The notes under the pieces were generated by a model, which did not search any database, was not told the DNA's origin, and saw nothing but the letters and a program-made list of their open reading frames with translations. DNA of 64,000 nucleotides from Marivirga aurantiaca (GTDB taxonomy: Bacteria > Bacteroidota > Bacteroidia > Cytophagales > Cyclobacteriaceae): assembly GCF_016679925.1 (NCBI RefSeq), contig NZ_JAEQBW010000007.1, positions 62,001-126,000 of the forward strand. The letters run 5' to 3'. The number at the start of each line of letters is the position of its first letter. Positions within the stretch are counted from its first letter, which is position 1. Position numbers and translations under genes: made by a program. Of the stretch, positions 29,702 to 39,887 are shown one piece after another.

Positions 29702-30814
29702 ATGAACCTGTCCTTTCAAAAAATATTTTTTATCCTGGCAACTGTTTTTGGCATTTTTGCAGTTTTAGTCTTTGCAAAAACTATTCTTATTCCTATCGGA
29801 ATGGCATTATTGATTTCTTTCATACTATTTCCTGTTTCCCGGAAATTGGAATCCTGGGGAACCAATAAAATTGTTGGAGCACTTTTATCCATTCTATTTT
29901 TGGTTTTAATTATAGCAGGTGGATTGACACTTTTTTCTACACAAATAATTCGTTTGTCTGATGAATTAAGCAATTTCACTGATAAAATCACCGCAACATT
30001 TACTGATGTCATCTTATATATAAATAATAATGTACAATTTTTAGGGGATTTTAATAGAGAGGAATTAATTGAAGAAGGTAAGGGCTGGCTGAAGGATTCT
30101 TCAGGGGCATTGTTAAGAAATACTTTTAGCGGCACAGCAGCTTTTCTTACAGGATTAGTGACCACTATCATTTTCACATTCCTCTTTTTAATATATAGAG
30201 TAGGTTTAACACAAGCGTTTATGAGATTCGCCTCTGCTGAAAACAGACAGAAAGTATTTCATATGCTTAAGAATATCCAGGAGGTGGGCAAGAAGTATCT
30301 TTCAGGCATGTTTACTTTAATTCTGATTCTTGGATTTGCCAATAGCATAGGTTTATGGATTATAGGTATTGACAGCCCTTTTCTATTCGGGTTTTTGGCC
30401 GCCCTATTATCCATCATTCCCTATGTAGGCACCACAATTGGAGCTACAATCCCTGTGCTCTATGCATTTATGTCAACAGATCAATTATGGGTTCCTTTGG
30501 CTGTAGTTGGTTTGTTTTGGTTTATACAGACAATAGAAAGTAATTTCTTAAGCCCGAAAATTGTTGGGAGCAGTTTAAATGTGAATGCTCTGGCAGCCAT
30601 TTTAAGTTTATTGATTGGTGGCTCAGTCTGGGGAATTGCCGGTATGGTGTTGTTCCTTCCTTTTGCTGCTATGCTCAAAGTATTTTGTGATGAGTTTGAA
30701 GAATTAAGACCTGTTGCCATGTTAATTGGCTCTGAAGTAGTTGGTAATGATAAAGATGATAAGAAATCCTCCAAATGGATTGGGAAAATAAAAGATTGGT
30801 TTTCCAGGAAATAG
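29702..30814 (+). CDS. AI-2E family transporter (first of a tandem pair)
   Basis: The 370-aa membrane protein has seven or eight hydrophobic segments and the AI-2E/TqsA/PerM family features: PIGMALLISFILFPV near the N-terminus, GFLAALLSIIPYVGTTIG, and FIQTIESNFLSPKIVG. Members include the autoinducer-2 exporter TqsA and sodium/proton antiporters, so the substrate here is open. It is closely similar along its length to the next gene, 175 nt downstream. Confidence 0.88.
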   Translation: MNLSFQKIFFILATVFGIFAVLVFAKTILIPIGMALLISFILFPVSRKLESWGTNKIVGALLSILFLVLIIAGGLTLFSTQIIRLSDELSNFTDKITATFTDVILYINNNVQFLGDFNREELIEEGKGWLKDSSGALLRNTFSGTAAFLTGLVTTIIFTFLFLIYRVGLTQAFMRFASAENRQKVFHMLKNIQEVGKKYLSGMFTLILILGFANSIGLWIIGIDSPFLFGFLAALLSIIPYVGTTIGATIPVLYAFMSTDQLWVPLAVVGLFWFIQTIESNFLSPKIVGSSLNVNALAAILSLLIGGSVWGIAGMVLFLPFAAMLKVFCDEFEELRPVAMLIGSEVVGNDKDDKKSSKWIGKIKDWFSRK

Positions 30815-30988
30815 TTTTGGAATTATTGCCATCAGAATTCAATCATTTTACCTGACGAAAATGTACAGAATAAACTATGTTTTCCGTCATTGAATTAAAA
30901 AATGATCAAGGTTAAACATGTTGAAATTAGTAACATAGAAGTTGAAATTGCAGTTTATTCTATTAAGCTTTAATTTTTTTACTTGAAA

Positions 30989-32104
30989 ATGCATATATCT
31001 TTTCGTAGAATTTTTTTTGTACTAGCTACTTCCTTTGCCATATTTGCAGCTTTAGGCTTTGCTAAAATTGTACTCATACCTATTGGTATGGCCTTACTGG
31101 TTTCTTTCATTTTGCTTCCGGTTTGCAAAGAACTTGAAAGATGGGGTCTCAATAGAACCCTGGCAGGTTTTTTAGCTGTTTTCATGCTACTTATTATTCT
31201 TTCAGGTGCCATTACCCTTTTCTCTTCTCAAATCATTAACTTATCTAAAGAAGTCTCAAATTTGGGACAAAAATTCATGAGTAGCTTTACTGATGTCCTG
31301 GTGTTTATCAATAATAACATCAATTTTGTAGATGATTTAAACAGAGATGATCTAATTGAACGTGCTAAAGAGTGGATGAATGAATATGGTGCTGCAATAG
31401 TCAATAGTGTAGCAACAATTATAGGAGGCTTGATCAGTACTCTTATTTTTGCATTTCTTTTTTTGATATACAGGGTGGGGCTCACAAAGGCATTTATGAG
31501 ATTCTCGGCAAAAGATAAAAGGGGGAGGACTTTCGATATGCTTAAAAAGGTTCAAAAGGTTGGGCAAGGGTATTTGTCAGGCATGTTTATTTTAATCCTA
31601 ATTATGGGTACGTCCCATAGCATTGCCTTATTGATAATAGGAATAGAAAGTCCTTTTCTGTTTGGATATTTTGTCGGGTTTTTGGTTATCATACCCTATG
31701 TGGGTACGGTGGCTGGTGCTATGATTCCTATTCTCTATACTTTTATGACAACTGATTCGCTTTTGACACCCCTGATTGTAGTTATTTATTTTTGGTTTAT
31801 TCAAACAGTTGAAAGTAATTTCTTAAGCCCTAAAATTGTAGGAAGCAGTATGCACGTAAATGCTCTTGCAGCCATTATAAGTTTAATTGTGGGTGGCGCA
31901 GTTTGGGGAGTAGCAGGAATGATTCTGTTTATGCCATTTGTAGCTATGCTCAAAGTTGTATGTGATGAATTTGAGGAATTAAAACCCATTGGTCTTTTAA
32001 TCAGTAGTGATGTGTCAGGAGCTGGTGACGGCTCAGCTGGCCGAACCTCCCTATTAAAAAGGAAAGTGAAAGAATGGTTCTCTTCAAAAGGAAATAGGGA
32101 ATAG
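30989..32104 (+). CDS. AI-2E family transporter (second of a tandem pair)
   Basis: I use the ATG at 30989 because the protein then aligns residue for residue with the first copy from the N-terminus (MHISFRRIFFVLA against MNLSFQKIFFILA); a TTG two codons earlier is less likely. The 371-aa product has the same order of membrane segments and motifs (IPYVGTVAGAMIPILY, ESNFLSPKIVG). It is a tandem paralogue with 174 nt between the two genes. The charged C-terminal tail differs between copies. Confidence 0.88.
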   Translation: MHISFRRIFFVLATSFAIFAALGFAKIVLIPIGMALLVSFILLPVCKELERWGLNRTLAGFLAVFMLLIILSGAITLFSSQIINLSKEVSNLGQKFMSSFTDVLVFINNNINFVDDLNRDDLIERAKEWMNEYGAAIVNSVATIIGGLISTLIFAFLFLIYRVGLTKAFMRFSAKDKRGRTFDMLKKVQKVGQGYLSGMFILILIMGTSHSIALLIIGIESPFLFGYFVGFLVIIPYVGTVAGAMIPILYTFMTTDSLLTPLIVVIYFWFIQTVESNFLSPKIVGSSMHVNALAAIISLIVGGAVWGVAGMILFMPFVAMLKVVCDEFEELKPIGLLISSDVSGAGDGSAGRTSLLKRKVKEWFSSKGNRE

Positions 32105-32124: not shown

Positions 32125-32691
32125 TTATTTCACTCTTCCCGGGTTATCATTAATAAATGCTTTCCAACTTTTAGTACTACTTGTGCCAGTTTTGCCTTGA
32201 AAGTGGTGGCATACTGCTACACCCAATGCATCAGTAGCATCCAATAGTTTAGGGATTTCTTTTATTCCCAACAAAGTTTTAAGCATTTCAGCAACTTGTT
32301 CTTTGGAGGCATTTCCATTGCCGGTTACAGACATTTTTACTTTTTTTGGGGCATATTCAGTAATTGGCAAATCCTTTTGCAAAGCTGCAGCCATAGCTAC
32401 TCCCTGAGCCCGGCCTAATTTAAGCATTGATTGGATGTTTTTTCCGTAAAAAGGGGCTTCCAATGCTACTTCATCAGGTAGGTAGTCGTTAATCAAACTG
32501 GTTACCCGATCAAAAATTTTCCGTAGTTTTACTTCATGGTTGGCATATTTCGACAAATGGATCACTCCATACTGTAACATGGTCATTTTTGTGCCTGAAA
32601 TCTTGATTACGCCATACCCCATCACTGAAGTTCCGGGGTCAAGTCCCAAAATAATTTTCTCTGCCTTTGAAGTCTGCTTTGTAACCACCAT
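32125..32691 (-). CDS. ruvC: Crossover junction endodeoxyribonuclease RuvC
   Basis: The start is placed at ATG 32691 (MVVTKQTSK), which leaves a short tail before the first strand. The 188-aa protein has the RuvC acidic residues: D18 in ILGLDPGTSVMGYG, the Glu in ALEAPFYGKN, and the Asp pair in LDATDALGVAV. The K-rich APKKVKMSVTGNGNASKEQV loop is typical. RuvC cleaves Holliday junctions with RuvAB; those genes are not in the window. Its start lies 41 nt from that of the divergent flippase-like gene. Confidence 0.94.
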   Translation of the reverse strand: MVVTKQTSKAEKIILGLDPGTSVMGYGVIKISGTKMTMLQYGVIHLSKYANHEVKLRKIFDRVTSLINDYLPDEVALEAPFYGKNIQSMLKLGRAQGVAMAAALQKDLPITEYAPKKVKMSVTGNGNASKEQVAEMLKTLLGIKEIPKLLDATDALGVAVCHHFQGKTGTSSTKSWKAFINDNPGRVK

Positions 32692-32732
32692 TATTGCAAA
32701 GTTAATATTCAGTTTCAATTAAGTGCAGATAT

Positions 32733-33662
32733 TTGAGAAAGCCTTTATTATTCTTACTTAAAATAATTATTTCGTTAGCGATCTTCGCTTTTTTGTTTTA
32801 CAGAATCGCTTCTGACAAGACATCTTTTAGCGAAGCTTTACAAGGTTATCATAATAATCTCCCCATTATATTGGTGGTTTTACTTTTGATGCCACTCAAC
32901 TGGGCAATGGAAGTATTTAAATGGAAATTGTGTATTAGTCCTCTTGTGAAGATTACCTTCAAGCAGGCAATTGCGGGAGTTTTATCCGGTGTGGCTCTGG
33001 GTTTTGTTACACCCAGGGCTGTGGGTGATTATTTCGCTAAAGTATGGTCAATACAGCATGAGGACAGGAAAAAAGCATTGGGGCCGATATTGGTCGCACG
33101 AATGTCCCAGATGTTGCCTACCTTGATTTTTGGAATTTTTTCAGTTAAAATTTTTCTGGATAAGTCCGGATCTATGTTGTACTTCCCTACTGGATATACC
33201 CCCATCTTGATAATTGTAGGTGGATTTTTATTACTTCTACTCCTGATATTTCTTTTTTTTAACTATGGTAAAAAGAAAAAACACCTGATATATTATTTTG
33301 ATTTGATCAGAGAGTTAAAGTTAGGGATTGTTGTTCAGCTTTTTGGTTTATCCATTGTACGGTATATAGTGTTTTCTATTCAGTTCTTGTTGCTTTTATC
33401 TATCTTTTCGTTTCCCTTGTCATTAGCGGATCAGTTTATGGGCATTTCATTTATGTTTTTAGCAAAATCAGTTCTACCTACTTTTAATGTTTTTAATGAT
33501 TTGGGTGTAAGGGAGTTTAGTGCAGTTTTATATTTTGAAGCTTTTGGTGTTGCTTCGGCTCCCATTATATTGGCAGGTTTAATTTTGTGGTTGATCAATA
33601 TTGCTGTGCCTGCTTTAATTGGTTTGTTTTTTATTCAAAGATTCCGAATTGACCCCTCATGA
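32733..33662 (+). CDS. Flippase-like integral membrane protein (lysylphosphatidylglycerol synthase TM family)
   Basis: This 309-aa protein has seven to eight membrane helices and the features of the LPG_synthase_TM/AglD family (NWAMEVFKWKLCISPL, GVALGFVTPRAVGDYFAK, ARMSQMLPTLIFGIF). It starts at TTG; no better in-frame start was seen. Family members move or modify lipids or lipid-linked sugars, and the catalytic domain of MprF is absent. It is the first gene of a compact cassette and overlaps the GT2 gene by 4 nt (ATGA). Confidence 0.85.
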   Translation: MRKPLLFLLKIIISLAIFAFLFYRIASDKTSFSEALQGYHNNLPIILVVLLLMPLNWAMEVFKWKLCISPLVKITFKQAIAGVLSGVALGFVTPRAVGDYFAKVWSIQHEDRKKALGPILVARMSQMLPTLIFGIFSVKIFLDKSGSMLYFPTGYTPILIIVGGFLLLLLLIFLFFNYGKKKKHLIYYFDLIRELKLGIVVQLFGLSIVRYIVFSIQFLLLLSIFSFPLSLADQFMGISFMFLAKSVLPTFNVFNDLGVREFSAVLYFEAFGVASAPIILAGLILWLINIAVPALIGLFFIQRFRIDPS

Positions 33663-34768
33663 TTTTCTTCCTGCTTTTAATTTCTGCTTATTCCTGCCTA
33701 TTATTTTACATGGCTTTTGCCTGGAGGAAAATAGCTACTCCAATATCCAAGGGAGTACCATTGAAAGTGACGGTTCTTGTGCCTTTCAGAAATGAGGAGC
33801 TTCATTTAAAGAGACTAATTCAATCTTTCCGCCAGTTAATTTATCCTAAAGAATTAATAGATTTTATTTTTGTGGATGATCATTCGGATGATGGTTCTTT
33901 TGGGCTTTTGGAGCAAATATTATCGGACTTTCCTTATCCCTACAAACTACTCAAGCTAGCAGATGAAAAAGGAGGCAAAAAGGAGGCAATTATGGAAGGA
34001 GTGAATTGTTCTCACGCTGATGTAATTCTCACTACTGATGCTGATTGCCAGGTAAATAGTGATTGGGTCAGTGAAATGCAATCCGCTTTTAATTCGCCTG
34101 CTATCCATTTAGTGAGTGGCAGTGTGGTTTTTGAAGCCAATAATTTTCAGGAGCGCATTTTTCAAATGGAATTTGCCCCATTAATAGGAGTGGGTGGAGT
34201 GAGTATATGGTTGGGCAAACCAACTATGGCAAATGGTGCTAACCTGGCGTTTAAAAGAAACACTTTTCTTTCTTTGGATGCTTTTAACAATAACTTACAC
34301 ATTCCTACAGGAGATGATGTTTTTTTATTGCAAAAAATGTCACAACATTATCCAGGTGGAATTAAATTTCAAAAATCTTCTGTGGTGACTACCAAAGCCC
34401 CATCAAATGTATCAACATTTTTCCATCAGCGCATTCGCTGGGCCTCAAAGTGGAAGGCTGTTGCAGAAAGAAAAAACAAGCTGCCAGCCCTTATGGTGTG
34501 GTTTTTTCACTTTCTTTATTTAATCGGGCTGTTCACATTTATTAACCAAATCCATTATGCGATGGCTTTCCTATTGCTTTTCATCAAATCTATAGGAGAG
34601 TTTGCTTTTATTTATTCAATTTTAAAATCCCAGCACCAAAAATTTAGCAGTCTTTCGTTCTGTTTTCTCCAGGTTTTTTATAGCTTTTATGTCGTATTAT
34701 TTGGTCTGCTTGCTAACTTTGCGGGTTACCAATGGAAAGGTAGAAGTTATGGAAAACATGAACGATAA
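33659..34768 (+). CDS. Membrane-associated family 2 glycosyltransferase
   Basis: The 369-aa protein has an N-terminal membrane helix, a GT2 domain (VLVPFRNEELHLKRLI, VDDHSDDGS, the metal-binding TTDADC and the QxxRW-type QRIRWASKW) and C-terminal membrane helices. This is the architecture of processive or lipid-sugar glycosyltransferases. It overlaps the flippase-like gene by 4 nt and the next small gene by 20 nt. The donor and acceptor are unknown. Confidence 0.9.
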   Translation: MIFFLLLISAYSCLLFYMAFAWRKIATPISKGVPLKVTVLVPFRNEELHLKRLIQSFRQLIYPKELIDFIFVDDHSDDGSFGLLEQILSDFPYPYKLLKLADEKGGKKEAIMEGVNCSHADVILTTDADCQVNSDWVSEMQSAFNSPAIHLVSGSVVFEANNFQERIFQMEFAPLIGVGGVSIWLGKPTMANGANLAFKRNTFLSLDAFNNNLHIPTGDDVFLLQKMSQHYPGGIKFQKSSVVTTKAPSNVSTFFHQRIRWASKWKAVAERKNKLPALMVWFFHFLYLIGLFTFINQIHYAMAFLLLFIKSIGEFAFIYSILKSQHQKFSSLSFCFLQVFYSFYVVLFGLLANFAGYQWKGRSYGKHER

Positions 34769-35015
34769 TGAATTTGATTTACTGGATGAATTATATTTTG
34801 TTCAGTCATACAAAGAGATAAAGGAAGCATTGCAATGGGGCGATGATAAACTAATCGAAAGCTTGTTTTCATTATACTGTAAAGGCTTTATTAAAGTATT
34901 AATAGCCCAGGATGAAGAGTATTCAAGCAATATTTCTACACCTCAGCAAGTTAAGTGGGAAGAAATGTATTACTTAGCCACCAAAAAGGGTCTTTTGGAA
35001 CATAATGGATTCTGA
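34749..35015 (+). CDS. Small uncharacterised protein, possible winged-helix fold
   Basis: With the ATG at 34749 the product has 88 aa (34758 is an alternative start). It is acidic, with predicted helices EFDLLDELYFVQSYKEIKEAL and DDKLIESLFSLYCKGFIKVL and a final YYLATKKGLLEHNGF. That order looks like a small winged-helix or MarR-like core, but this is a guess without a family hit. It overlaps the 3' end of the GT2 gene by 20 nt in another frame, as expected for translational coupling. It precedes the SpoIIE-type phosphatase by 86 nt. Confidence 0.62.
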   Translation: MENMNDNEFDLLDELYFVQSYKEIKEALQWGDDKLIESLFSLYCKGFIKVLIAQDEEYSSNISTPQQVKWEEMYYLATKKGLLEHNGF

Positions 35016-35101
35016 TATAGGAGCCTGGGAAGAATAATATAAAGAAAATCAATACTTTCTTTATATTAATCCATTTGTATCTATTATATTCACACTTGAA
35101 C

Positions 35102-36328
35102 ATGGACACAACTTATCAAATATCCAATCAGTATGAGCTCAAGGAATTAGAGTTAAATTCTTTGCTCGAAATCACCCAGGCCATTAATGATAACTTGTCT
35201 GAAGAATCCCTGTACAAGATTTACAATTTTACTTTAAGGGCTAATTTGCGTCTGGCAAAGCTTCTTTTGCTTGTGAAGGAAGAAAATGAATGGCAATGCA
35301 AGGTGGAGTTTGGTGCCAAAAAAAGCTTTAATTGTGAAATACCTTCTGAAGCACTGATTGAACACAAAAAAATATTGTTTCAAAATGATTTGGCAGATAG
35401 TCCATTCGATGAATTTGAGGTAGGCATTCCCGTTTTTCATAAAAATAATTTATTGGCGGTGGTGTTTTTAGGCGGGGTGGCTGATAGCAGTGAAAAAAAG
35501 TTGATTGAAAATCATCTTAATTTTATACAGGCACTTACCAATATCATCATGGTAGCCATTGAGAATAAGAAAATGGCTCGTGCAAAAATTGAGCAAGAGG
35601 TATATGCAAAGGAGATGGAAATTGCTAAAAAAGTGCAACAATTGCTATTTCCTAAAACCTTGCCTGATCAGGAGAACTTTAAAATTGCCGCTCATTATTC
35701 ACCCCACAATACAGTGGGAGGAGATTACTATGATTGGTTGGAGATAGACGAACACAGAAAAATTGTCTGCATAGCAGATGTTTCGGGAAAAGGGGTTCCT
35801 GCCGCCCTCCTTATGTCAAATTTTCAGGCATCATTGAGGACGTTATTGCGTAAAACCTCTGATCTCGAGGAAATCATAAAGGATTTGAACTATCAGGTAT
35901 TCCAAAGTGCTGATGGCGAAAATTTCATCACTTTTTTTATGGCTTTGATTGATGCACATGAAAGTCATATTACCTATGTGAATGCAGGCCATAATCCCCC
36001 CTTTTTAATGAATGCTGATGGAATCAAGGAGTTAGACAAAGGTACGCTTGTATTGGGTGCTTTTGAGGAATTACCTTTTCTGGAAATTGGCCATTTAGAT
36101 TTGAAAGGAGAGCAGACCATGTTCCTGTACACAGATGGGCTTACAGAAGCTTTTAATGACCAGGAAGAGGAATTTGGAGCGGAAAAGGTTGAAGCCTTTC
36201 TGCAGAAAAACAAAACAGCAACTCCCACGCTTTTGATCTCAGAGTTGCTGAAAAAATTAGATGATTTTGTTGGCGACAGAGCTTTTTCTGATGACATTAC
36301 CCTGTTAGTTTGCGATTTTAATGTTTGA
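35102..36328 (+). CDS. GAF-like domain plus SpoIIE/RsbU-type PP2C serine/threonine phosphatase
   Basis: I take the ATG at 35102 (MDTTYQISN) over a TTG nine codons earlier. The 408-aa cytoplasmic protein has a GAF-like sensor region (about 20-160), a linker helix (KEMEIAKKVQQLLFPKTLP) and a PP2C-type phosphatase domain. The metal-binding motifs are GGDYYDW, ADVSGKG, YVNAGHNPP, LYTDGLTEA and FSDDITLLV. RsbU relatives control anti-sigma-antagonist proteins. No partner switch (RsbW/RsbV) is nearby; the neighbours are envelope-glycan genes. It overlaps the deacetylase gene by 8 nt. Confidence 0.9.
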   Translation: MDTTYQISNQYELKELELNSLLEITQAINDNLSEESLYKIYNFTLRANLRLAKLLLLVKEENEWQCKVEFGAKKSFNCEIPSEALIEHKKILFQNDLADSPFDEFEVGIPVFHKNNLLAVVFLGGVADSSEKKLIENHLNFIQALTNIIMVAIENKKMARAKIEQEVYAKEMEIAKKVQQLLFPKTLPDQENFKIAAHYSPHNTVGGDYYDWLEIDEHRKIVCIADVSGKGVPAALLMSNFQASLRTLLRKTSDLEEIIKDLNYQVFQSADGENFITFFMALIDAHESHITYVNAGHNPPFLMNADGIKELDKGTLVLGAFEELPFLEIGHLDLKGEQTMFLYTDGLTEAFNDQEEEFGAEKVEAFLQKNKTATPTLLISELLKKLDDFVGDRAFSDDITLLVCDFNV

Positions 36329-36959
36329 TAAGATTTTCTATAAAACTCCTGCTATTATAAGAGAAATACTTCCAGGTGTTGAATGGAGAATAGAAACCAC
36401 TACCAGACAAATATATCTAACTTTCGATGATGGACCTATTCCGGGCCTTACTCATAAAATTCTTGATATCCTTGCTGAAAATGAAGCCAAGGCCACTTTT
36501 TTTTGTGTAGGGGATAATATCAGAAAGCACCCTGATGTTTTTAAGGAGATTTTAGCCTCTGGACATGCTGTAGGCAATCACACCCAACATCACCTGAAAG
36601 CCTGGAAATCTGCCAAACGGGACTATTTAAATGATATTGATGCATGTGAATCTTATATTAACAAATATCATCAACCTTCGAAAAAACTTTTCCGCCCACC
36701 CTATGGTCAAATTACGCCCACTTTATCCAATACTATTACTAAATTAGGATACCGCATTATTATGTGGGATGTATTGTCCAGGGATTATAATCAGAAGATT
36801 TCTCCTGAAAACATTATGAGAAAGTCAATTCAATATTCCGGAGAGGGCAGTATCATAGTTTTTCATGACAATATAAAGGCACAGGAAAATGTGCTTTTTG
36901 TTTTGCCTCAGTATATCAAATATTTTAGTGAACGTGGATTTAAATTTCTAGCATTATGA
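36321..36959 (+). CDS. Polysaccharide deacetylase family protein (NodB homology, CE4)
   Basis: The 212-aa protein has the NodB motifs: TFDDGP with the catalytic Asp and metal Asp, HxxxH in GNHTQHHLKAW, RPPYG, the DVLSRDY segment and the late IVFHD. CE4 enzymes de-N-acetylate chitin, peptidoglycan or polysaccharide amino sugars. No signal peptide is seen. It overlaps both neighbours (8 nt before, ATGA after), so it works most likely with the two glycosyltransferases, possibly on a cytoplasmic or lipid-linked sugar. Confidence 0.92.
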   Translation: MFDKIFYKTPAIIREILPGVEWRIETTTRQIYLTFDDGPIPGLTHKILDILAENEAKATFFCVGDNIRKHPDVFKEILASGHAVGNHTQHHLKAWKSAKRDYLNDIDACESYINKYHQPSKKLFRPPYGQITPTLSNTITKLGYRIIMWDVLSRDYNQKISPENIMRKSIQYSGEGSIIVFHDNIKAQENVLFVLPQYIKYFSERGFKFLAL

Positions 36960-38065
36960 GCGTTTTGTTTTATGTTCTCCTATTTATTATATTAAGTGTA
37001 ATTGTAGTTGACTTAATTCTTTGGCAAGCATGGAGAGCCAAACCCATTAATGCTGAGCCATATACTGGTGAGTTACCTTTTATTTCTATCTTACTGGCTG
37101 TCCGGAATGAAGTGCATTTCGTAAATTATACTTTGAATTCCCTGGAGGCATTGGACTACCCTAAAGACAAGTACGAGGTATTGATGGGGGATGATGAATC
37201 TGATGATGGTAGTTCCAAAATTATGAAAGCCTGGGATAAAGAAACCAACAATTTTTTTTATATCCCTATAGATATGAAAAAGGATAACCTGGACGCAAAG
37301 GCCAATGTATTGGCTCAATTGGCAGATAAAGCTAAGGGGGAATTCCTGATGATGACAGATGCTGATGCAGAAGTAGCTCCTACCTGGATTATGAAAAACC
37401 TTGCCTGTTGGAAACCTGGCTTAGGAATTCAAAGTGGCTTTACACTGGTAAAAGTAGATAGTTTTTTTTCAAGTATGCAAATGGTTGATTGGGGCCTTGC
37501 ACTGGGTATGGTGAAGATTGTCACTGGCTGGAAAATTCCTGTTACCGCTGTTGGCAATAATATGATGGTCAGTAAGGAAGCTTATCAAAAAGTAGGTGGT
37601 TACAGGGCTATCCCGTTTTCTACTACTGAAGATTTTGCCTTGTTTCAAGCCATAGTGAGAAAAGGGTACTCTTTCCAGCAATTAGCTAATGAAGAAAGTC
37701 TGGTTTATACCCAAGCCATTAAAGGATTCTGGAATTTATTGGAACAAAGAAAAAGATGGATGAGGGGAGCTATGGAGCTGCCAGCTTTTATGAAAACTTT
37801 ACTGCTTATTCAGGCATTATACTTTCCTGCCATGTTAATCATGATTTTTGTAAATCCTTTGGTGGCCATTCCTCTTTTTGGTCTGAAAATCACACTTCAA
37901 AGTTTATTTATTGATAAAATACTGGATCGGTTAAATCAATATTTACCTTTAGGTCATTTATTTATATTTGAATTTTATAGTGGCTTTCTCTCCGTTGCAC
38001 TCATGATATATTATCTGTTACCTTTGCCGGTAAAATGGAAAGGTAGAAAATACACAAAAGGATGA
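36956..38065 (+). CDS. Membrane-associated family 2 glycosyltransferase (second of the cassette)
   Basis: The 369-aa protein has the same layout as the first GT2: N-terminal helix, GT2 core with ILLAVRNEVHFVNYTL, GDDESDDGS, TDADAEV and QRKRWMRG, then C-terminal membrane helices. It has the same length as the earlier GT2 but clearly different sequence, which suggests consecutive transfer of two sugars or two acceptors. Start and stop overlap the neighbours by 4 nt each (ATGA). Confidence 0.9.
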   Translation: MSVLFYVLLFIILSVIVVDLILWQAWRAKPINAEPYTGELPFISILLAVRNEVHFVNYTLNSLEALDYPKDKYEVLMGDDESDDGSSKIMKAWDKETNNFFYIPIDMKKDNLDAKANVLAQLADKAKGEFLMMTDADAEVAPTWIMKNLACWKPGLGIQSGFTLVKVDSFFSSMQMVDWGLALGMVKIVTGWKIPVTAVGNNMMVSKEAYQKVGGYRAIPFSTTEDFALFQAIVRKGYSFQQLANEESLVYTQAIKGFWNLLEQRKRWMRGAMELPAFMKTLLLIQALYFPAMLIMIFVNPLVAIPLFGLKITLQSLFIDKILDRLNQYLPLGHLFIFEFYSGFLSVALMIYYLLPLPVKWKGRKYTKG

Positions 38066-38817
38066 TTGAAACACATGCGCATTTGTATGCAGAAGAATTT
38101 GACAAAGATAGAGCAGAGATGCTTGAAAGAGCCCAGCAAGAAGGGGTTAAGGAATTATACATGCCTAATATTGATAGCGAATCTATAGATGCTATGCTAG
38201 AAGTGGAACAGAAATTCCCTCAAACCGTTGCTACCATGGGTTTGCATCCCTGTTATGTAAAAAAAGATTTTGAGAAAGAGCTCTATCAGGTAGAAAATTG
38301 GTTGAATAAAAGAAAGTTTGCTGCTATTGGTGAAATAGGCCTTGACTTTTATTGGGATAAAACTTTTAAACTACAACAGAAAGAGGCTTTGAAAATCCAG
38401 ATTGATTGGGCAAAAAAATACAAGCTTCCCATCATATTACATTGTCGTGATTCTTTTCAGGAAACTTTTGAAATTGTAAAATCTATGAATGACGAGAACC
38501 TGAAGGGAGTTTTTCATTGCTTTTCAGGAACTGCGGAACAAGCAAAGGAAGTAATTGATTTAGGATTTTATATTGGAGTAGGGGGAGTGGTTACATTTAA
38601 AAATGGAGGATTGGCCGAGTATGTTCCTGATATTGATGTCAACCGGATAGTCCTGGAAACAGATGCGCCCTATCTGGCTCCTGCCCCTAACAGAGGTAAA
38701 AGGAATGAACCTGCTTACCTGAGTATTATTGCACAAAAAATTGCTGATTTGAAAGAAATACCATTGCAGGAATTAGTACAAATTACCAGTAAAAACGCCA
38801 CTCAATTATTCTCCTGA
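38062..38817 (+). CDS. TatD family metal-dependent DNase/hydrolase
   Basis: The 251-aa TIM-barrel protein begins MIETHAHLYAEEFDKDR with the first metal HxH and has GEIGLDFYWD, LPIILHCRD, VFHCFSG and LETDAPYLAP, the TatD family metal ligands. TatD proteins are metal-dependent nucleases with a role in DNA or tRNA quality control. It overlaps the GT2 gene by 4 nt and the asparaginase gene by 1 nt, so it is co-translated but probably not functionally linked. Confidence 0.93.
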   Translation: MIETHAHLYAEEFDKDRAEMLERAQQEGVKELYMPNIDSESIDAMLEVEQKFPQTVATMGLHPCYVKKDFEKELYQVENWLNKRKFAAIGEIGLDFYWDKTFKLQQKEALKIQIDWAKKYKLPIILHCRDSFQETFEIVKSMNDENLKGVFHCFSGTAEQAKEVIDLGFYIGVGGVVTFKNGGLAEYVPDIDVNRIVLETDAPYLAPAPNRGKRNEPAYLSIIAQKIADLKEIPLQELVQITSKNATQLFS

Positions 38818-39887
38818 TGATGAACCCATACGTTTTAACTCATATTGACACCGCTACTCCAAAAGCACCTGAGCAATCTGTTCTGATTATTTACACCGGT
38901 GGTACTTTAGGAATGGTTTATAATGAGCAACAGGCATTAGTGCCATTTGATTTCAAACATATTTTGAAAGAAGTGCCTTCTCTCAAAAATTTTAACCTGA
39001 AAATCACAGTTGCTTCCTTTAAAGAATTAATTGATTCTTCCAACGTAAATCCAAAACACTGGAGCGATATTGCAGGGCTCATTGAAATGTACTATGAAGA
39101 TTATGATGGCTTTATAGTCATTCATGGTACCGATACTATGGCCTTCAGTGCTTCAGCTATTAGCTTTATGCTGGAAGGTTTGAATAAACCAGTTATTTTT
39201 ACAGGTGCACAATTACCTATTGGAGCAGCCAGGTCAGATGCCAGGGAAAATTTAATAACAGCGATAGAAATTGCCTCTCAAAGATTGAATCACCGACCAG
39301 TAGTTTCTGAAGTCTGTATTTATTTTGATAATTTACTGCTTCGCGGGAACCGCTCCAAAAAAGTAGAGAGTGTACAGTTTGATGCATTCCAAAGTGAAAA
39401 CTATCCTGTTTTGGCTGAGGCTGGCGTAATAATTGAATACAATTTTTCCGCTTTGAGAGCCTATCAGCCGGAAGCACAACTAAAAGTCCGGAAAGATATT
39501 CATCAGGAAGTGGCCATACTCAAAATTTTTCCGGGTATTACACAATCATTTGCTAAAGGTGTATTATCTATCCCTGGCTTGAAAGGAATAGTAATGGAAA
39601 CCTACGGATCAGGAAATGCACCAACCAATCCATGGTTTATTGATGAACTAAAGCAGGCTATAGACAGGAATATCCTAATCATGAACGTTTCACAATGTAT
39701 GGGAGGAAAGGTTATTCAGGGTAAATACCAAACCAGTTCTGCTTTGGAAGAAATTGGAGTGATTAGTGGAAGTGATATCACTACAGAGGCGGCTATTACC
39801 AAAATGATGTATGTTCTCAGCCATGCAGAGAATTTGGAACAACAACGATTGAATTTGATTAAACCATTAAGGGGTGAGATGGAGTAA
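38817..39887 (+). CDS. ansA: Type I (cytoplasmic) L-asparaginase
   Basis: The 356-aa protein has the first active-site threonine in IIYTGGTLGM and the second in GFIVIHGTDTMAFSASA. It lacks a signal peptide, so it is the cytoplasmic type. It hydrolyses asparagine to aspartate and ammonia. The start overlaps the TatD stop by 1 nt (TGATG), and a second ATG follows directly. It is the last gene of the long same-strand run. Confidence 0.92.
   Translation: MMNPYVLTHIDTATPKAPEQSVLIIYTGGTLGMVYNEQQALVPFDFKHILKEVPSLKNFNLKITVASFKELIDSSNVNPKHWSDIAGLIEMYYEDYDGFIVIHGTDTMAFSASAISFMLEGLNKPVIFTGAQLPIGAARSDARENLITAIEIASQRLNHRPVVSEVCIYFDNLLLRGNRSKKVESVQFDAFQSENYPVLAEAGVIIEYNFSALRAYQPEAQLKVRKDIHQEVAILKIFPGITQSFAKGVLSIPGLKGIVMETYGSGNAPTNPWFIDELKQAIDRNILIMNVSQCMGGKVIQGKYQTSSALEEIGVISGSDITTEAAITKMMYVLSHAENLEQQRLNLIKPLRGEME

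Follow-up and report, generated by a model that had tools for sequence, protein, structure and literature searches.

In a 64,000-nucleotide stretch of the Marivirga aurantiaca genome (hereafter the window), six consecutive genes encode a flippase-like membrane protein (flip), two membrane glycosyltransferases of the GT2 class (gtA and gtB), a small protein (sml), a SpoIIE-type phosphatase (phos) and a NodB-type deacetylase (deac). We consider it likely that they belong to a conserved housekeeping neighbourhood of the Cytophagales, an order found in soils and in the sea, and that this neighbourhood contains two functionally separate modules, namely a glycolipid cassette (flip-gtA-deac-gtB) and the phosphatase of a three-part partner switch whose other genes are scattered over the genome. 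What we observed directly are the content and order of the genes, their conservation, the separability of the modules, and the co-occurrence of the phosphatase with a kinase. An earlier note on this DNA had seen a single envelope system in the same genes; of that interpretation the conserved order, the cassette and the hint at a partner switch have held, whereas the inclusion of the phosphatase in one system has not.

A conserved neighbourhood with two separable parts

Using an alignment of the phosphatase, we retrieved 80 named loci, nearly all from Cytophagales; chosen by phosphatase similarity, they yield tallies that describe the relatives of this phosphatase rather than Cytophagales as a whole. 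The genera sampled include Marinoscillum, Roseivirga, Fulvivirga, Algoriphagus, Pontibacter, Rufibacter and Flexithrix, together with many metagenome bins. Two records, L105 and L111, are labelled Thalassobius and Thalassovita (alphaproteobacteria); because they carry Cytophagales-type phosphatase loci, the bins in question have probably been mislabelled or are mixtures.

The consensus order is divergent ruvC, flip, gtA, sml, a gene for an OppC-like permease, phos, deac, gtB or gt28, tatD, asparaginase and exbB, with flip, sml and the permease as optional members. Among the 69 loci tallied upstream, gtA was present in 64, the divergent ruvC in 60, sml in 35 and flip in 25; Algoriphagus is among those whose cluster lacks flip. 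Downstream (72 loci with enough sequence on that side), deac occurs in 65, always immediately after phos (65/65), tatD in 65 and asparaginase in 63. A second sugar transferase is found in 57 of the 72: gtB in 39 and, in 18, gt28, a GT28/GT1-like transferase (PF13528) that takes gtB's place between deac and tatD, the two never occurring together. This replacement is seen, for instance, in L029-L031, L063, L070, L076, L103 and L107. The earlier note had made its proposal depend on conservation of the gene order beyond close strains. Indeed, dozens of Cytophagales genera share this order, and the arrangement is therefore more than chance. In L054, L069, L088, L096, L097 and L115, a permease gene (in L054 matching BPD_transp_1 at 2e-28 and OppC_N in Pfam) occupies exactly the place of the single gap in the M. 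aurantiaca cluster, which suggests that the gap is probably a lost permease gene.

A search with gtB across the phylum, followed by retrieval of 38 loci from outside the window's class, uncovered the complete series flip-gtA-deac-gtB in other classes (L014, L022, L210, L213 and L216-L220), besides partial cassettes consisting of gtA-deac-gtB or deac-gtB (L013, L016, L019, L215, L221 and L225). No phosphatase was labelled beside any full or partial cassette in these other-class loci. The suggestion that the flippase-like, GT2, deacetylase and second GT2 genes form a cassette is thus borne out, and because their order recurs in other classes without an adjacent phosphatase, we regard them, by gene order, as an independent, phylum-wide and putatively glycolipid-forming unit. 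In L014, L017 and L225 a GT28-like gene lies downstream of gtB; hence gtB and gt28 seem to serve one pathway, of which the Cytophagales have retained one or the other gene. Radical SAM genes lie directly up- or downstream of the four genes in L216 and L220, from another class.

The conserved residues agree with the enzyme families. Invariant in gtA (alignment A6) are D127, D129, D220, Q257, R258, R260 and W261, that is, the three aspartates and the QxxRW motif, and deac belongs to the Polysacc_deac_1 family with its catalytic motifs conserved (TFDDGP, HxxxH, RPPYG, W/D and HD). Judging by these families, one membrane GT2 would transfer an N-acetylated sugar onto a lipid carrier, deac would strip off the acetyl moiety, leaving an amino sugar, the second transferase (gtB, or a gt28-like enzyme in relatives) would extend the amino-sugar lipid, and the PF03706 protein encoded by flip would turn the product to the periplasmic face. 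Products of the N-acyl-glucosaminyl-undecaprenol type were considered and dropped for want of evidence.

For the phosphatase, we compared 51 loci, composed of loci from 40 further Bacteroidia families and 11 retrieved earlier. The gene directly follows an LpxD-like gene in 21 of them, 13 of which carry the gene of elongation factor P (EF-P) and then the LpxD-like gene (L041, L174 and L180, for example). In four loci it lies beside TM2/CBS/NAD kinase genes, and in four more it is preceded by a permease gene, alone or with sml, in surroundings free of glycan genes. In six, flip, gtA or both lie nearby (one of the six is also among the LpxD cases), 12 show other neighbours, and five are at contig edges. 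In none of the 51 is deac adjacent to phos, and L038 alone has deac further downstream. Thus, phos is separable from the glycan cassette, and in most other Bacteroidia families its orthologues have unrelated genes as neighbours. Outside Cytophagales, with the genes of EF-P and an LpxD-like acyltransferase before it in many Bacteroidia families, the gene is repeatedly found next to envelope-lipid genes. In L167 and L205 (families f44 and f97), sml, the OppC-like permease gene and the phosphatase gene occur together with no glycan genes; because the trio is kept without them, this hints that it is an older unit.

The phosphatase and its candidate partners

The metal motifs GGDYYD, DVSGKG and DD are conserved in the phos alignment. 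The structural model of the protein, with a mean confidence (predicted local distance difference test, pLDDT) of 85.6, comprises a GAF-like alpha/beta domain, a single helix at residues 132-182 and a PP2C domain; the Pfam match to GAF_2 is weak, below cut-off, and no membrane part is predicted. Top folds in the PDB were RssB, the RsbU domain of Rv1364c, SiaA and SpoIIE, with PP2C matches at E values down to 7e-15, and SiaA also appeared as a weak NCBIfam match. With a SpoIIE domain, the metal motifs, a PP2C fold and, in the model, a sensor and helical linker, phos is predicted to be a GAF-linker-PP2C protein of the RsbU type within the PPM phosphatases. The same sensor-linker-PP2C layout is found in the RsbU/RssB/RsbZ-type phosphatases, where the signal passes from varied sensor domains via helical linkers to PPM dimers (PMC12143880).

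Neither a STAS gene nor a kinase gene occurs within the cluster itself; the RsbW-like and STAS genes are found on other contigs. Across the source genome there are 11 SpoIIE domains, 4 matches to STAS and 22 to GHKL ATPases, two of the 22 being strong RsbW-like single-domain proteins. One of these two belongs to the C4 operon described below. The other is the RsbW-like kinase encoded in a DUF4175-rsbW-ybeY-mnmG locus (contig C5, about 89947-90348), and it conserves the Bergerat N-box (E45..N49) and the DxGxGF and GRG boxes. An orphan STAS gene, whose product conserves S56 in the motif NSSGIG, resides in a relA/spoT-fur-STAS-purA locus (contig C30, about 529093-529431). Synteny of both loci extends to other families. 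As expected of a partner switch, the genome thus encodes both a STAS protein with a phosphorylatable serine and an RsbW-like kinase.

The presence of phos tracks that of the ybeY-locus kinase. Among 198 Bacteroidia genomes, 134 carry both genes, 14 the kinase alone, 7 the phosphatase alone and 43 neither. The seven with the phosphatase alone all fall short of 90% completeness; when only the 175 genomes that reach 90% are considered, the counts become 124, 10, 0 and 41, respectively (P = 8e-31), and the association persists at the family level (P = 7e-9), where the genomes' relatedness, which makes P values overstate independence, is partly controlled for. Kinase-only genomes come mainly from two families, f80 and f87. 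Families f4 and f47 include members with both genes and members with neither, so that the agreement does not stem solely from deep ancestry. In a separate phylum-wide sample of 247 genomes, all 19 Bacteroidia genomes were concordant, with no discordance among the absences listed, and gtB was found at E<=1e-40 in only 6 of the 19. One genome, G190, retains gtB-tatD-asparaginase and lacks both phosphatase and kinase, its weak SpoIIE match (2e-34) being taken as a paralogue. Co-occurrence is thus very tight for phosphatase and kinase and weaker for the STAS protein. Together with the RsbU-type layout, it supports the earlier hint that the phosphatase is a partner-switch component.

From the family assignments we infer how the parts might be wired, as well as any signal or target. 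A signal bound by the GAF-like sensor would order the long helical linker and thereby reach the PP2C domain, which would dephosphorylate the STAS protein of the relA-fur-STAS-purA locus; STAS proteins are the docking substrate of SpoIIE/RsbU (PMC11418112). The dephosphorylated STAS protein would then capture the RsbW-like kinase or anti-factor of the DUF4175-rsbW-ybeY-mnmG locus, and the bound kinase would free its target.

The RsbU-RsbV-RsbW and SpoIIE-SpoIIAA-SpoIIAB systems share with these proteins a SpoIIE-type PP2C phosphatase, a STAS protein with a conserved serine, an RsbW-like GHKL protein and the overall layout, but here the three genes are unlinked and reside in housekeeping operons. 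Nor did any sigma factor of the SigB, SigF or SigG type score above cut-off in the source genome; the best match was a 287-residue sigma of the primary-sigma type, presumably the primary sigma factor of this member of the Bacteroidetes. A precedent comes from the Rsb network of Chlamydia, in which RsbW targets the primary sigma factor (PMC4552016). That network resembles ours as a partner switch without an alternative sigma-B and with a possible primary-sigma target; it differs in that phos is GAF-linked with no predicted membrane part, and in Bacteroidia such a target is only a possibility.

The source genome also has, apart from the cassette, a complete SpoIIE-STAS-RsbW operon on contig C4 (C4:84483-85855; L136:5014-7871). 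It was rejected as the pathway of phos, as it already encodes a phosphatase, and is possibly a second partner switch served by that enzyme.

Other explanations of the neighbourhood

Several points weigh against the view that the neighbourhood combines two separate modules, one of them part of a scattered switch. The STAS gene tracks the phosphatase less tightly than the kinase does (both in 107 genomes, phosphatase only in 34, STAS only in 11, at E<=1e-14), possibly through divergence of a short domain or substitution among several STAS proteins, and beyond Cytophagales its orthology becomes loose. Co-occurrence is not the same as interaction, the genomes compared are related, and components of the C4 operon could cross-talk with the partners of phos. 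The cassette has no known glycan product. Finally, the 80 loci were picked by phosphatase similarity, and in dozens of Cytophagales genera phos has remained joined to the glycan genes, as a regulatory link could explain.

Such a link is the essence of one alternative, which we judge unlikely: a single regulated envelope system in which phos, via the STAS/kinase switch, directly controls the adjacent glycolipid enzymes, much as SypE and SypA control their own locus. The overlapping genes on one strand speak for it, as do the 65 of 72 Cytophagales loci with deac immediately after phos and the precedent of SypE/SypA in the syp polysaccharide locus of Vibrio fischeri (PMC10120452, PMC4517449). Both SypA/SypE and the SiaABC system of Pseudomonas aeruginosa employ a SpoIIE-type phosphatase and a STAS protein to control surface polysaccharide or biofilm. 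In these systems, however, the switch genes are clustered in the target locus, whereas here those for the STAS protein and the kinase lie elsewhere, and an in-locus switch of the SypE/SypA type was rejected on that account. Moreover, the glycan cassettes of other classes have no phosphatase, the phosphatase of most families has no cassette, and the phos profile follows the kinase rather than gtB. Since each module occurs without the other, a single switch serving its neighbours is not our first choice, and the assignment of the phosphatase to the same envelope system is not supported.

A second alternative, which we find improbable, is that the neighbourhood is neutral, an old housekeeping run kept by transcription and slow rearrangement, in which the glycan genes, phos, TatD and asparaginase are functionally untied. 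The ruvC, TatD, asparaginase, permease and ExbB-type genes do share no pathway, and the composition of the block varies freely as flip, sml and the permease come and go. Yet neutral conservation alone is insufficient to account for four glycan genes standing in the same order among different neighbours in other classes, and the mutual replacement of gtB and gt28 in place suggests a shared pathway step.

That the cassette is a known pathway in disguise, namely poly-N-acetylglucosamine (PNAG) synthesis by pgaC/icaB, hopanoid glucosamine formation by hpnI/hpnK or synthesis of the Nod-factor type, is highly improbable. The enzyme classes fit, with gtA and gtB matching PgaC, HpnI and NodC, and deac matching NodB models; the pgaC/icaB and hpnI/hpnK pairs likewise join a membrane GT2 to a de-N-acetylase. 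However, the cassette has two GT2 genes and a PF03706 flippase-like gene, none of the accompanying genes of these pathways is present in the cluster, and the scores come nowhere near the curated cut-offs, with 62 and 71 bits where the PgaC/IcaA equivalog requires 422, 45 and 41 where HpnI requires 310, and 35 where NodC requires 550. With 113 bits against 240, deac is a member of the NodB/CE4 superfamily and not a NodB equivalog proper, and HpnK is absent from its NCBIfam matches.

Gene set and its meaning

Table 1. Features of the neighbourhood, in window coordinates
Feature	Position	Strand	Description
ruvC	32125-32718	-	Divergent gene, upstream boundary of the conserved neighbourhood; NCBIfam RuvC equivalog above cut-off
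flip	32733-33662	+	Start TTG; LPG_synthase_TM (PF03706) flippase-like membrane protein, Pfam 8.2e-16
gtA	33659-34768	+	Membrane GT2, PgaC/HpnI-like; Pfam GT2 3e-18
sml	34749-35015	+	Small open reading frame, 88 residues, predicted winged-helix protein; no Pfam family
gap	35016-35101	+	86 nucleotides; in many relatives a gene for an OppC/DppC-like ATP-binding cassette (ABC) permease of about 390-440 residues in the same place
phos	35102-36328	+	Predicted GAF-like domain, long helical linker and SpoIIE/PP2C domain; Pfam SpoIIE 1e-44
deac	36321-36959	+	NodB-type (CE4) de-N-acetylase; Polysacc_deac_1 1.4e-34
gtB	36956-38065	+	Second membrane GT2; Pfam GT2 3e-12, GT2 group 2_3 2.5e-14
tatD	38062-38817	+	TatD-family hydrolase, conserved neighbour; Pfam 2e-79
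asparaginase, type I	38817-39887	+	Conserved neighbour; Pfam 2e-56

The six genes overlap by 4, 20, 8 and 4 nucleotides around the one gap, exactly as first described, and tatD and asparaginase follow with overlaps of 4 and 1 nucleotides. Pfam assignments of flip and the enzyme genes lie above gathering cut-offs, and the PF03706 match spans residues 9-297 of the 309 in flip, a full-length family match. None of flip, gtA, phos, deac and gtB has an NCBIfam equivalog, the matches being far under curated cut-offs and, for flip, absent. Thus, the families of these proteins are ordinary, and their exact function lies beyond existing assignments. No curated family was found that covers the cassette. 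A literature search returned no description of its gene combination and no described partner switch in Bacteroidia, weak evidence in both cases as subscription papers lay largely outside the search.

For sml, no family was found in Pfam or NCBIfam. An eight-row alignment shows the motif LATKKGLxxHN, and the AlphaFold model (pLDDT 83.5) best matches MarR-type winged helices in Foldseek, with a moderate template modelling (TM) score of 0.72 and an E value of 5e-3. The protein is accordingly modelled as a winged helix, for which DNA-binding and adaptor roles are both conceivable. Homology search with sml alone reached few genomes owing to its fast divergence. Upstream of ruvC, at 29702-30814 and 30983-32104, lie tandem genes for similar membrane proteins of about 370 residues that, judged by eye, resemble a duplicated AI-2E-type transporter.

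The scattered partner switch is the more interesting half of the two modules. We propose, tentatively, that most Bacteroidia carry a core switch of this kind, made of the GAF-PP2C phosphatase, the relA/fur-linked STAS protein and the ybeY-linked RsbW-like kinase, which may dispense with sigma-B or sigma-F, target either the primary sigma factor or something other than a sigma, and couple starvation or stress to envelope synthesis, while the phosphatase gene has repeatedly settled beside envelope genes (LpxD-like, glycolipid cassette). If our reading of two modules is right, a widespread orphan phosphatase gains partners that can be tested, a partner-switch pathway is predicted throughout the Bacteroidia, and the four-gene glycolipid cassette, phylum-wide and lacking a named product, becomes a unit of its own.

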